Assembly: GCA_030265585.1 (NCBI GenBank)
Contig: JAJDGJ010000005.1
Location: 15,001-52,121 of the forward strand
DNA: 37,121 nt
Direction of reading: 5' to 3'
Source: Erysipelotrichaceae bacterium OttesenSCG-928-M19
GTDB lineage: Bacteria; Bacillota_I; Bacilli_A; JAJDGJ01
Shown: one piece after another, positions 11,539 to 35,305 of the stretch
Position numbering within the stretch: the stretch's first letter is position 1
How the letters are laid out: each line of letters begins with the position of its first letter
Position numbers and translations under genes: made by a program
The notes under the pieces: model-generated
Database searches by the model: none
Told to the model about the DNA's origin: nothing
Seen by the model: only the letters and a program-made list of their open reading frames with translations

Positions 11539-13311
11539 ATGAAAAGAATTGATGATAAAATAATTGAAGAAATACGAGAAAAAAACGATATAGTTGAGGT
11601 TATTTCAAATTATTTACCTTTAACAAAAAAAGGTAAGAACTATGTATGTCTTTGTCCTTTTCATAATGATTCTAATCCTTCGTTAACAATCTCGCAAGAA
11701 AAGCAAATTTATAAATGTTTTTCTTGTGATGCTGGCGGTAATGTTATAACCTTTGTTCAAGATTATGAGAAAATTAGCTTTTTAGAAGCATTAAATAAAC
11801 TAGCACAAAACATAGGACTTGATTTAGAACTTGATAATAATCAAAACAATTCTAATAGTAAATATAATCAATTAAGTGAGTATTATCAATTAAATGAAGA
11901 GGCTAATACATTATTTCAATATTTGTTAAATGAGGCTGGTAATGATTTAACTACTACTTATTTGAAGAATAGAAAAATAGATAATGATATTCAAACTAAG
12001 TTTCAAATTGGCTATTCTAGTTCAAACAATGTTTTAACAAACTTATTAAAATCTAAGAATTATGATTTAAATAAAGCTGTCGAAATAGGATTATTAAAAA
12101 TAAAAGATAATGAATACTATGATAATTTTCAAAATAGAATTACATATCCAATTATTGATTTAAATAATAAAGTTACAGGATTTACTTGCCGTACAATTAC
12201 TAATGAAGAACCTAAATTTCTTAATTCTATTGAGTCAAAAATTTTTAATAAATCATCATTATTGTATAATGTTAATAATGCTAAAGATAGTATTAGAAAG
12301 AGCAAAACAGTATATATTTTAGAAGGACCAAATGATGTTATTGCTTTTAATAAAGCAAAAGTTGATAATGTTGTTTGTATTATGGGAACAGCTTTTACTA
12401 CTGAACATATTAATGTTTTAAGACAATTAAATGTCACAGATATTATTTTGGGCTTTGATGGTGATGAAGCTGGTCGTAAAGCTACCTATAATGCTTTTAA
12501 TACTTTAAGTAAGTATAAGTTTAATATTCGTTATTTGGATTTTAAGGATAATGATCCAGATGACTATTTAAATAAATATGGTTATGATGAGTTTAATAAG
12601 GTGCTAAGTTACTCTAAATCTGCAATTGAGTTTAAGATTGATTATGAGTTCTCCTTAATTAATACCAATAATTTCACTGAAAAAAAACAATTAGTACAAA
12701 AACTTGTGGCTGAATTGAATAAGGTACTTGATAATTTTGATAAAGAGTATTATTATAATTATTTAGCAAGTATTTCTGGGATATCATTTGAATTAATTGA
12801 ATCATATTCTTCACAACAAAGAAGTGACTATACTCCAAATAAAAAAAATATCACCAGAAAAAAAGTTGTCTTAAATGATATTGAGAATGCATCATTAAAT
12901 ATTTTATATTTTATGATGAAAGATATTAAGTATTTTAAAGTTTTCAATACTGAAGTACAAACATTTCTTAATCCATATTATCGCAAGTTATATAATGTTA
13001 TTGCTGCCTATTATTTAAATAGTAATGTTTTCAATCTTGCTGATTTAGATAAATTAAAAATTGAAAATAATATTATAGCAGCATTAATGAAAATATCACT
13101 TAATTATCAATATGATGATGAAGTTGCTGATGAAGTTTTTATGGACAGTATTTCGACGTTAAAAACTGAGAAATATTATTTAGATTTAGCACAGAAAGAG
13201 GAAGAATTAATAAATATAAGTGATCCGCTTGAAAAGGCGAAAAAATCTAGTGAAATACTAGAACTAACAATGAAATTAAATGAGGCAAAGCATAAAAAAT
13301 TCAATAAATAA
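11539..13311 (+). CDS. dnaG: DnaG, DNA primase
   Basis: Makes RNA primers for the replication fork. The 590-residue protein has the N-terminal CHC2 zinc site (C39, H42, C60, C63), a TOPRIM catalytic core with EGPNDV near 261 and the acidic GFDGDEAG near 308, and DNDPDDYL after it. The C-terminal part (about 430-590) should be the helicase-interaction domain and is asparagine/lysine-rich and poorly conserved. It is followed 13 nt later by rpoD, the classic dnaG-rpoD order. Confidence 0.97.
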
Positions 13312-24338: not shown

Positions 24339-25091
24339 TTATTTAGTAAAGTTACTTTTCTCTAAATACTGTAATGATTCAATAAGTTGTTTGTCATTAT
24401 TGATTTCTAGGGTTAAAGTAGGATTTATTTTTAATTTATTAATTAAGTTAAAGACTTCATCATAGTTAATACTGCCATATAATAGGCCATTGTGGCTGTC
24501 TATTTGACCATTATTATTATGTAGATGTAAATGTTTAAGATATGGTGCTAGATTAGTTAGCCAATCTACTAAATTATATTTACTTCTTATATTTGCATGT
24601 CCTAAATCTAAACAAATATTAAAATAAGGTTTATTTATTATTTTAACTAATTCTAATAGATATTTATATTCATCTTCAAAAACATTTTCAATATAGATTT
24701 GGATACTATCATCTTTATCCTTTAGAAAATCATTCCAAAATATAATTGAATTAGTAAGCCATGATTCATAAAAATAAATATTCTTTAAATAACCACTATG
24801 AAAAATTATATGATTAGCTTTTATTTTTTGTGCAGCAGCATATACTTGGTTAAACCTTGTCATTGTTGCTTGATATATTAAACTATCAAAAGTTGCTGGT
24901 GATAAATCAAAATAGGGACCATGTAAAGCAAGTGGAGATTCATTATTATAGTAATTATTAGCTAGATATTTACTAGGATTATCTAAGTTATCAGCAATAC
25001 TAAAATCTATTAGTTCAACACCAATATTATATTGTTTTTGTAATTTATTTATTAAATTATCATCAACTAACTGTGAAATATATACTTTCAT
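24339..25091 (-). CDS. Xylose-isomerase-like TIM barrel protein
   Basis: A 250-residue protein of the sugar-phosphate isomerase/epimerase (AP endonuclease 2) superfamily. It has ALHGPYFDLSP near 55-65, NHIIFHSGYL near 93, YIENVFED near 133, ICLDLGHANI near 158, LKHLHLHNNNG near 185 with the usual metal-binding His and Asp/Glu pattern, and LTLEIN near 227. These are typical barrel-strand ends with metal ligands. The substrate is not clear: sugar epimerase/isomerase or endonuclease IV-like are both possible, and the DxGH and HLHD-like motifs favour the isomerase side. It is transcribed alone. Confidence 0.8.
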   Translation of the reverse strand: MKVYISQLVDDNLINKLQKQYNIGVELIDFSIADNLDNPSKYLANNYYNNESPLALHGPYFDLSPATFDSLIYQATMTRFNQVYAAAQKIKANHIIFHSGYLKNIYFYESWLTNSIIFWNDFLKDKDDSIQIYIENVFEDEYKYLLELVKIINKPYFNICLDLGHANIRSKYNLVDWLTNLAPYLKHLHLHNNNGQIDSHNGLLYGSINYDEVFNLINKLKINPTLTLEINNDKQLIESLQYLEKSNFTK

Positions 25092-25171: not shown

Positions 25172-25206
25172 ATTATAAAAAAACTCTAAATTATTATTTA
25201 GAGTTT
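25172..25206 (-). terminator. Terminator of the XRE regulator gene
   Basis: Stem AAACTCTAAAT / ATTTAGAGTTT with a TATT loop. On the minus strand the stem is followed by TTTTTTATAATTT. It lies 10 nt after the XRE stop. Confidence 0.8.
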
Positions 25207-25215
25207 GATATATAA

Positions 25216-25551
25216 TTATTTGTTTGTGGTAGCTAGAACAAAAATCTTTAATAATTCTTCAGCATGTTTTTGTTGATCATCATTTAAAGATTCAATCAAT
25301 AATTGTATTGGTGTAATATTGGCCTTATTTATTGTACCAAATAGAATATAATCAGTAGTTACTTTTAATTCTCTTGATAAGGAAATTAAAGTTGGAACAG
25401 AAAATCCTTTTGAGCCAAGCTCAATATCACGATAAAAATTTGGTGAAATACCTAGTTTTTCAGCAATTTCTTCTCGCGTAAAACCAAGAAACTCTCGATG
25501 ACTTCTAATTCTACTGCCAACCACTTTATGATCAAAGTTTAAATTATTCAT
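25216..25551 (-). CDS. XRE-family helix-turn-helix regulator
   Basis: A 111-residue protein with an N-terminal Cro/C1-type helix-turn-helix (about 10-68): VGSRIRSHREFLGFTREEIAEKLGISPNFYRDIELG, then a dimerising helical tail. The region from SVPTLISLSRELKVTTDYILFG is the usual last helix pair. AAGGTGGTGC serves as ribosome-binding site. It is divergent from the DUF1361 gene. Several TTAA-centred repeats lie over its own promoter, which suggests autoregulation. The ligand or trigger is unknown. Confidence 0.9.
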   Translation of the reverse strand: MNNLNFDHKVVGSRIRSHREFLGFTREEIAEKLGISPNFYRDIELGSKGFSVPTLISLSRELKVTTDYILFGTINKANITPIQLLIESLNDDQQKHAEELLKIFVLATTNK

Positions 25552-25571
25552 GATAGCACCACCTTAAGATA

Positions 25572-25600
25572 ATTATATATTCTTTAAGGATACTCTTAAA
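25572..25600 (-). promoter_or_regulatory. Promoter of the XRE regulator
   Basis: Minus strand: TTTAAG (plus 25595-25600), 17-nt spacer, TATAAT (plus 25572-25577). The -35 is itself one of the TTAA repeat elements, so a protein bound there would block the promoter. Confidence 0.65.
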
Positions 25601-25604
25601 GTTC

Positions 25605-25664
25605 CTTTTAAGGTTATTTTAGATATCTTTTAAGGTTATTTTAGATATCTTTTAAGGTTATTTT
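25605..25664. repeat. 22-bp direct repeats (2.7 copies), TTAA-centred operator-like array
   Basis: Copies at 25605-25626 and 25627-25648 are identical (CTTTTAAGGTTATTTTAGATAT) and a partial copy runs 25649-25664. Each holds CTTTTAAGG, a near-palindrome with centres 22 bp apart (two helical turns). Related sites CTTAAG (25563), CTTTAAGG (25582) and CTTAAAG (25595) continue toward the XRE gene. The array lies between divergent promoters. Confidence 0.8.
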
Positions 25665-25710
25665 AATTTATTAATTATTTTTAATTTATTTATAATTATA
25701 ACATTATTAA

Positions 25711-25739
25711 TTGCATTATATTATTAATCATTATATAAT
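25711..25739 (+). promoter_or_regulatory. Promoter of the DUF1361 gene
   Basis: TTGCAT (25711-25716), 17-nt spacer, TATAAT (25734-25739). It is about 47 nt downstream of the repeat array and 25 nt upstream of the gene. Confidence 0.75.
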
Positions 25740-25763: not shown

Positions 25764-26411
25764 ATGAATAAGATAAATATGTATGTTAGAGTATTTTTAA
25801 TAAGTTTTTTAGCTTTGGTACTATTAGTTTCAAACTATACTGATTTTTATATTAGTTTTCTTATTATAAATATGATTCTTGCCTATATACCTTTTGAAAT
25901 AAGTTGTTTTATTAATAAAGTAAATAATAAATTATTAATTATTTTATTATCATTATTATGGTTATTATTTTATCCAAATGCGCCATATTTAGTGACTGAT
26001 TTCTTTCATTTAGAAGCATTAAATATTTATGAGCTTACAACTATTTTTAACTTTGAGTTGTATGACTGGCTTGAATTTGCGATTGTATCTTGTGGCTTAA
26101 TATTTGGATTGTTAATAGGGATTATTTCTTTATTTAGAGTAATTAAGAAGCTTCAAATGACTTTTTTTAAGAAAGAGTCAAAATTAATATTTTTGTTACT
26201 AGCGATTATTATTACAATAGCATCAGGATATGCTATTTATTTAGGCCGTTTCCCACGATTACACTCTCATTATTTATTTACTAATCCTCGTTTTATTATT
26301 GATATAATAATAAATTCAATTAATAAGGATACGATTATTTTTTCAATTGGAATGGCCTTGTGGCAAATACCAATTATATATTTAATAAAATTATTTAAAG
26401 ACCATGATTAA
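25764..26411 (+). CDS. DUF1361 multi-pass membrane protein
   Basis: A 215-residue membrane protein with about six spans (roughly 7-25, 30-48, 55-72, 105-125, 143-160 and 190-207). Two conserved family motifs are visible: LLFYPNAPYLVTDFFHL (about 67-83) and GRFPRLHSHYLFTNP (about 162-176). The family function is unknown. GTGGAGGTGAGG provides a strong ribosome-binding site. The gene stands alone and is divergent from the XRE regulator, which likely controls it or itself. Confidence 0.85.
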   Translation: MNKINMYVRVFLISFLALVLLVSNYTDFYISFLIINMILAYIPFEISCFINKVNNKLLIILLSLLWLLFYPNAPYLVTDFFHLEALNIYELTTIFNFELYDWLEFAIVSCGLIFGLLIGIISLFRVIKKLQMTFFKKESKLIFLLLAIIITIASGYAIYLGRFPRLHSHYLFTNPRFIIDIIINSINKDTIIFSIGMALWQIPIIYLIKLFKDHD

Positions 26412-26503: not shown

Positions 26504-26580
26504 GTTGTAGACCTCATTCTACAACCGCACTAAAAAGGTTTAAGAGGCTAGGCCCACCTTAATGGCGAGTCTGAGAAAAT
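26504..26580 (+). ncRNA. L21 leader, ribosomal-protein operon cis-regulatory RNA
   Basis: Untranslated leader between a strong promoter and rplU. It has the 5' hairpin TTGTAG...CTACAA (26505-26523) followed by AAAAAGGTTTAAGAGGCTAGG and CCACCTTAATGG. Position upstream of rplU-prp-rpmA and this layout fit the Rfam L21 leader of Firmicutes, thought to bind L21 for feedback control. A covariance-model search was not possible here. Confidence 0.65.
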
Positions 26581-26598
26581 ATAGGAGGTGTGTTAATA

Positions 26599-31147: not shown

Positions 31148-31152
31148 GAAGA

Positions 31153-31305
31153 TGTTAAGGGGCATAAAAAATTCCTCAAAATAAGATAAAGGGAACATGT
31201 GTCAAGATTGTGGTGTGCATACTTAACCATTTTGTTAAGAAGCCTAAAATAACTTGTAGTGTACCCACCTGAAAATATTCGGGATTTATCTTTGCCCTTT
31301 AGCTT
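31153..31305 (+). ncRNA. ssrS: 6S RNA
   Basis: 6S RNA mimics an open promoter and sequesters sigma-A RNA polymerase. The ends pair as a long closing stem: GGGGCA near 31160 with TGCCCT near 31293, and AAGATAAA (31183-31190) with TTTATCTT (31285-31292). A terminal hairpin CTTAAC-CATTTT-GTTAAG is followed by AGAAGCCTAAAA and then a CCCACCTGA...TCGGG segment. These match the order seen in E. coli 6S RNA (AGAAGCCUUAAAA, then UUCACCUUGAA). It ends with a T-rich run. Borders are approximate. It is not translated. Confidence 0.85.
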
Positions 31306-31326
31306 TTTTATTTAGGAGATTAGATA

Positions 31327-34619: not shown

Positions 34620-34649
34620 GTAAACGGAAGTTAAATTAAATATAAACAC

Positions 34650-34735
34650 TACTTTGCAGGGGAACTAGAATTTAGTTGAGAAGGTAAAACCTGACCCTTA
34701 GAACCTGTTAGTTAATACTAGCGTAGGGAGCATGT
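34650..34735 (+). promoter_or_regulatory. TPP (THI-box) riboswitch
   Basis: The two conserved aptamer halves are visible: GCAGGGGAAC...GTTGAGA on the pyrimidine-sensing arm and ACCCTTAGAACCTG...TACTAGCGTAGGGAGC at the end. This is the classic thi box. A terminator follows at 34747-34778 and thiT after it, so thiamine pyrophosphate would stop thiT transcription. Confidence 0.93.
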
Positions 34736-34746
34736 TATCAAAAAAT

Positions 34747-34813: not shown

Positions 34814-35305
34814 ATGTTTAAAACAAAAGAGATAGTTAATATTGCATTAATCTCAGCAATCGCTTTTTTACTATCATTAGTGATTCTATTTAGAATGCCT
34901 AATGGAGGTAGTATTACTGTATATTTAGTACCTTTATTTTTTGCTGCATTCAACAATGATTTAAAAACTAATGTCTTTATTGCTATTGTAACAGCTACAT
35001 TACAGGTTTTATTTGGAGGCTATGTCTTGAATCCTATTCAAGTTATGTTAGATTATTACCTACCAGTTATGTTTATTTGCATTTGTATGATTTTTAGATT
35101 GAATAAGTATATTAATCTTTTCATCGGTTCATTACTTGCAATGGTTTGTTACGTTATTTCTGGAATGATTTTTTTTGAAGTTCCATTTTTAGCATCAATT
35201 ATTTATAATGCAACATTTTTTATTCCAACCATTATTTTAAATCTGATAATATTTGCCTTAATTAATCCACGTTTAGGTAAAATATATGAATCATATCAAA
35301 AATAA
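34814..35305 (+). CDS. thiT: ThiT, thiamine-specific ECF transporter S component
   Basis: Membrane substrate-binding subunit of an energy-coupling-factor transporter for thiamine. The 163-residue protein has about five or six spans and the ThiT marks GGSITVYLVPLFFAAF (about 31-46) and GGYVLNPIQVMLDYYLPV (about 72-89), containing thiamine-site residues. It is preceded by a TPP riboswitch and terminator, which confirms the assignment. The ECF energising genes are not in the window. AAAGGA is the ribosome-binding site. Confidence 0.95.
   Translation: MFKTKEIVNIALISAIAFLLSLVILFRMPNGGSITVYLVPLFFAAFNNDLKTNVFIAIVTATLQVLFGGYVLNPIQVMLDYYLPVMFICICMIFRLNKYINLFIGSLLAMVCYVISGMIFFEVPFLASIIYNATFFIPTIILNLIIFALINPRLGKIYESYQK

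Follow-up and report, generated by a model that had tools for sequence, protein, structure and literature searches.

An operator-like array of 22-bp repeats at the predicted promoter of an XRE regulator gene in Erysipelotrichaceae bacterium OttesenSCG-928-M19

The XRE gene and its neighbours

The stretch of DNA analysed here (the window) comprises 37,121 nucleotides of contig JAJDGJ010000005.1 from Erysipelotrichaceae bacterium OttesenSCG-928-M19. On its minus strand it carries a gene for an XRE-type HTH regulator of 111 aa (25216..25551), whose product exceeds the gathering scores of both HTH_3 (PF01381; 40.9 vs 23 bits) and HTH_19 (PF12844; 48.7 vs 30.2 bits) and therefore belongs to the XRE/HTH_3 superfamily; an AlphaFold model of the protein alone gave a mean pLDDT of 42. 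Just 3′ of the stop codon lies a terminator-like hairpin (25177..25206, minus strand; -13.3 kcal/mol, z -5.34), with an 11-bp stem (25181-25206) leading into a U run, which is missing from the list of a rule-based terminator scan that requires at least three G-C pairs. Because a stable hairpin and a U run follow the stop codon, the gene looks monocistronic.

The left neighbour of the regulator gene, used as a synteny anchor, encodes a TIM-barrel protein with an AP_endonuc_2 domain (24339..25091, minus strand); its best NCBIfam match is the cobamide-remodelling CbiR, below the cut-off (53.4 vs 105). On the other side, and on the plus strand, an ORF with a domain match encodes a DUF1361 membrane protein of 215 aa (25764..26411), a domain for which the literature searched yielded a single mention, in a transcript list. 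The core promoter of this gene, TTGCAT-17-TATAAT (25711..25739, plus strand), was located by alignment with a congener and is absent from the list of the rule-based promoter scan. About 100 bp past the DUF1361 stop codon, an L21 leader (26513-26582) was found upstream of rplU. Elsewhere in the window, a TPP riboswitch (34648-34746) precedes a membrane-protein-like ORF of 163 aa at 34814, a 6S RNA match (31149-31309) barely reaches its gathering score (46.5 vs 46.4), and positions 1-2083 hold a 5S rRNA and a 23S rRNA truncated by the window edge, so that two long minus-strand ORFs called there are probably spurious.

The order was sampled by four genomes: the present one (G000), one of the same genus (G001), and two others (G002 and G003). 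Gene order in G001 is the same, glpX-uvrC-[TIM-barrel gene]-DUF1361-rplU (glpX and uvrC being names that we presume from the protein sequences), the two TIM-barrel proteins are 58% identical, and the DUF1361 promoter aligns between the congeners; the ~96 bp that separate the TIM-barrel gene from DUF1361 in G001 contain neither the XRE gene nor the array. G002 and G003 do not polarise gain or loss, because DUF1361 and the TIM-barrel gene are both missing from them. No close orthologue of the XRE protein was found in the three relatives, the best match being 34% identical in G001, with a weak match in G003 and none in G002, which favours, but does not prove, a gain in G000; the congener comparison is a small sample of one relative. 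The first-pass annotation had proposed a dedicated switch made of the XRE and DUF1361 genes, and this proposal finds no support in the congener, which keeps DUF1361 and its promoter while lacking both the XRE gene and the array. The two genes as a pair were rejected on synteny, and the array clearly belongs to an XRE cassette rather than to an XRE/DUF1361 module.

Repeats, dyad sites and the predicted XRE promoter

Upstream of the XRE gene lies a tandem 22-bp direct repeat (25605..25665) of 2.8 copies with 100% matches (TRF period 22, score 122, the top score within the window), consisting of two exact copies at 25605-25626 and 25627-25648 and a third of ~17 bp at 25649-25665. In the 220 bases that precede the gene, self-matching at shift 22 scored 39, vs a maximum of 15 across 30 shuffles that preserved dinucleotides; this score was used in place of an 11-mer repeat count, which had no power and did not raise the real array above shuffles. 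Three 15-bp sites without assigned strand, S4 (25602-25616), S5 (25624-25638), and S6 (25646-25660), are held or overlapped by the repeat, with centres at 25609, 25631, and 25653. The two exact copies, the partial third, their coordinates, and the 22-bp spacing of the three main centres had all been correctly described at first pass, whereas the label TTAA-centred gives way to an odd-centred dyad, TAWCYTT-N-AAGGWTA, as the better description of the sites. Three further related sites had also been claimed, of which the one at 25582 corresponds to a match to the unit with 3 mismatches (25578-25592) and those at 25563 and 25595, which differ from the unit 15-mer at at least 6 and at 7 of 15 positions, respectively, have no unit match and were set aside. 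The repeat observation was thus confirmed in part.

The match at 25578..25592 (site S2, no strand assigned; TATTCTT-T-AAGGATA) lies outside the tandem repeat and is the most symmetric 15-mer among the sites, with 6 of 7 dyad positions symmetric, vs 4 in S4 and 5 each in S5 and S6. Symmetry alone is weak evidence, because 5/7 is reached by many AT-rich 15-mers of the array region. The predicted XRE promoter (25572..25599, minus strand) consists of TTAAGA (25599-25594), a 16-bp spacer, which S2 exactly fills, and TATAAT (25577-25572) and is a consensus match only; the promoter scan overall gave 18 promoter-like sites, vs 14.8 ± 4.1 in shuffles, and hence no excess. The chance of a match as good as S2 in the 44 bases from 25561 to 25604 is 0.010 under a Markov model and 0.012 from the window rate, the unit itself having been read from the same region. 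If transcription of the XRE gene starts near 25565, as we infer, the site centres lie at about -20 (S2) and at -44, -66, and -88 (S4-S6), so that several like sites would cover the regulator's own promoter, S2 within the predicted spacer and the others upstream.

Distribution of the site and relatives of the regulator

The G000 assembly spans 1.12 Mb and is 62% complete, so that over a third of the genome is probably unseen, and within it the core CTTTTAAGG is not rare. A count of this core across the assembly, which the first-pass annotation had put forward as a check, gave 19 occurrences, 3 in the array and 16 outside it, vs 7 for the reversed control. The unit 15-mer TATCTTTTAAGGTTA, allowing up to 3 mismatches, occurs at 14 places in the window, four of them in the array, vs 6.9 ± 2.6 expected. 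The 15-mer pattern TATCYTTTAAGGWTA, which was written to include S2 and hence offers no independent test of that site, has 56 matches in G000 at up to 2 mismatches, including 5 in the array. Almost all of the 51 remaining, weaker matches (48) fall in ORFs, and three are intergenic (L100, L106, and L109, each with 2 mismatches); three of the 51 lie in the window and were placed by its ORF list. Because ORFs already cover ~93% of 20 of the stretches examined, this is about the background rate and amounts to no intergenic enrichment. Every one of the three non-array matches with a single mismatch is inside an ORF. A regulon of the site in the assembly was rejected on the same 3 of 51, and the scatter of repeats over unrelated intergenic regions that would have spoken against a dedicated array was looked for and not seen. 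Nor is the excess of the 15-mer specific to G000: at up to 2 mismatches, each of the order's four genomes has roughly twice as many matches as the reversed control, or more (56/28, 87/43, 82/26, and 106/30). Among 395 genomes of the class, two have the core paired at 22-bp spacing, namely G000 and, with a single match, G259; the reversed control gave 2 matches in the same set. The sites are private to the XRE array, and no second array was found.

At E <= 1e-6, 23 of the 395 class genomes, G000 included, encode homologues of the XRE protein, and at E <= 1e-9 so do 8 of 392 in the phylum sample. The highest identity among them is 45%, over 66 residues, and the best-scoring one, from G001, is 35% identical over 101 aa, including a C-terminal KHAE stretch. 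This G001 homologue belongs to a small integrative element (L036, 2791-10396) that also encodes a phage-type integrase, a REP_ORF2-G2P replication protein, an FtsK/SpoIIIE protein, and a 755-aa protein with no Pfam match at E 0.001. Further homologues occur in 25 plasmid records, one of them adjoining conjugation genes, and in 6 phage records. Viral contigs contained neither a relative of the XRE protein nor an exact 22-mer match, and a scan of genome contigs returned one partial match of 33 residues in a Bacteroidales MAG. Comparable arrays were seen upstream of other HTH homologues in 0 of 46 regions; the regions of L057, L053, and L054 score above their shuffles (p 0.03, the lowest value that 30 shuffles allow), each on far weaker repeats. 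No integrase, Rep, or FtsK-type gene stands beside the XRE gene in G000, where the adjacent genes are those for AP_endonuc_2 and DUF1361. Judged from these sequence relationships, it is plausible that the gene is an orphaned mobile-element repressor.

Several characterised regulators share features with this one. ImmR from ICEBs1 of Bacillus subtilis and Rco from plasmid pLS20 bind several sites at divergent promoters, with looping suggested or shown, according to excerpts of PMC4207663. Like ImmR as portrayed there, the present protein is a small XRE regulator whose promoter, in the intergenic region between divergent genes, carries several sites; its HTH is similar to PDB 7t8i (E 8.3e-06). 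Unlike at ICEBs1, the adjoining DNA has neither a mobile element nor an excision gene nor an anti-repressor protease, three of the four sites lie in a perfect tandem repeat, and the divergent neighbour is DUF1361. In ImmR/ImmA modules of ICEs the regulator lies inside an integrative element next to an ImmA-type protease, whereas the neighbours here are as given above and the surrounding gene order matches the element-free locus of G001. The best NCBIfam match of the protein is the RstR family (NF041951), nearly full length (residues 12-110), but its score of 39.5 bits, vs a cut-off of 80, leaves it outside that family. RstR family repressors bind cooperatively to extended operators; a further difference is that the two proteins adjacent to the XRE protein here are not phage proteins. 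With Rco the locus shares an HTH regulator and multiple repeated motifs, and it would also share the cooperative binding and bent DNA described in the same excerpts (PMC4207663); the motif differs (8-bp boxes in Rco), and the conjugation promoter is absent here. The regulator is best read as like ImmR or RstR in kind and a member of neither.

Operator function and alternatives

We consider it likely, with a probability of roughly 70%, that the array is the XRE regulator's own operator region, mediating autoregulation through cooperative dimers within a self-contained cassette. In favour of this reading are the repeat statistics, the placement of S2 in the spacer, the HTH domain, the hairpin after the gene, the privacy of the sites, and the missing cassette in G001; weighing against it are the failure to find an orthologue, the lack of a similar array in the 46 other upstream regions, the modest symmetry of S5 and S6, a promoter known from consensus alone, and a unit for the S2 test that was taken from the same region. 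XRE regulators are for the most part autoregulated, binding upstream of the genes that encode them, and a large number recognise palindromes as dimers, according to excerpts of PMC12565409. Dimers of the 111-aa protein would bind the odd-centred 15-bp dyads, and occupancy of S2 in the promoter spacer would block polymerase and thereby repress the XRE gene. S4-S6, upstream of the -35 box and two helical turns apart, would carry dimers side by side on one face of the DNA, and these dimers may help to fill S2 or hold it. By the standard of ImmR and Rco, a spacer site with phased upstream sites argues for autorepression with cooperative loading. The first-pass annotation had placed an operator-like array for a presumably dimeric regulator, with sites on one helical face at 22-bp spacing, on the XRE promoter, and this part of its interpretation is supported; as a whole it is partly supported. 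Duplication of 22 bp in tandem probably produced the additional site copies, and the cassette (array, promoter, gene, and terminator), absent from the same place in the congener, was presumably inserted between the TIM-barrel gene and DUF1361 rather than lost from G001, with DUF1361 transcribed from its own, presumably older, promoter. S4, at about -44, might serve for activation as well.

That XRE dimers on the array additionally control DUF1361, for instance by looping to its promoter, is unlikely. The predicted -35 boxes of the two divergent promoters (25599 and 25711) are ~110 bp apart, ImmR has six bound regions at divergent promoters ~130 bp apart and Rco acts by looping (excerpts of PMC4207663), and a wedge model predicts bent DNA over the repeats. 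However, the DUF1361 promoter is overlapped by no unit match, none being listed between 25661 and 27695 at up to 3 mismatches, it starts 50 bp past the end of S6, the last site, and it is the same in G001, where array and XRE gene are missing. The bending itself might be what matters, with phased T-tracts acting as a curved-DNA or UP-like element that stimulates the promoter without a specific protein. Six T4 tracts do lie exactly 11 bp apart (25606-25664), with a predicted bend of 70-72 degrees per 66 bp in the wedge model, but within the window this ranks near the 96th percentile, which is not extreme next to a maximum of 122 degrees near 13219, and curvature would leave unexplained the dyad in the spacer at S2, which has no T4 tract; we therefore regard this explanation as improbable. 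The moderate predicted bend from the T-tracts could nevertheless help and need not be the function.

Least credible of all is an origin of the 22-bp repeats as iterons, or as other sites of replication or integration, that a mobile element left behind along with an orphaned repressor. The nearest homologue in the genus does belong to the integrase-bearing element of G001, and others are on plasmids and in phages, but neither adjacent protein is a Rep or an integrase, the flanking order matches G001, and a site within a promoter spacer suits an operator better than an iteron. An iteron origin calls for a replication initiator gene beside the repeats, and the proteins adjacent to the array lack a Rep domain. 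Distinctly speculative is the idea that an immunity repressor of a mobile element was captured between two resident genes and has become a stand-alone self-regulator with two phases, in which dimers at S4 would activate its own promoter, S2 in the spacer would shut it off, and the copy number of the 22-bp unit would tune the set point; such a repressor could also act in trans on incoming elements with the same operator.

Read as the regulator's own operator, the array is real but ordinary, its kind being already known, and the result informs little on DUF1361. An undescribed XRE regulator from a lineage about which little is known thereby gains an operator that can be tested, and the locus exemplifies a cassette of regulator plus operator that one of two congeners carries within an otherwise kept gene order.
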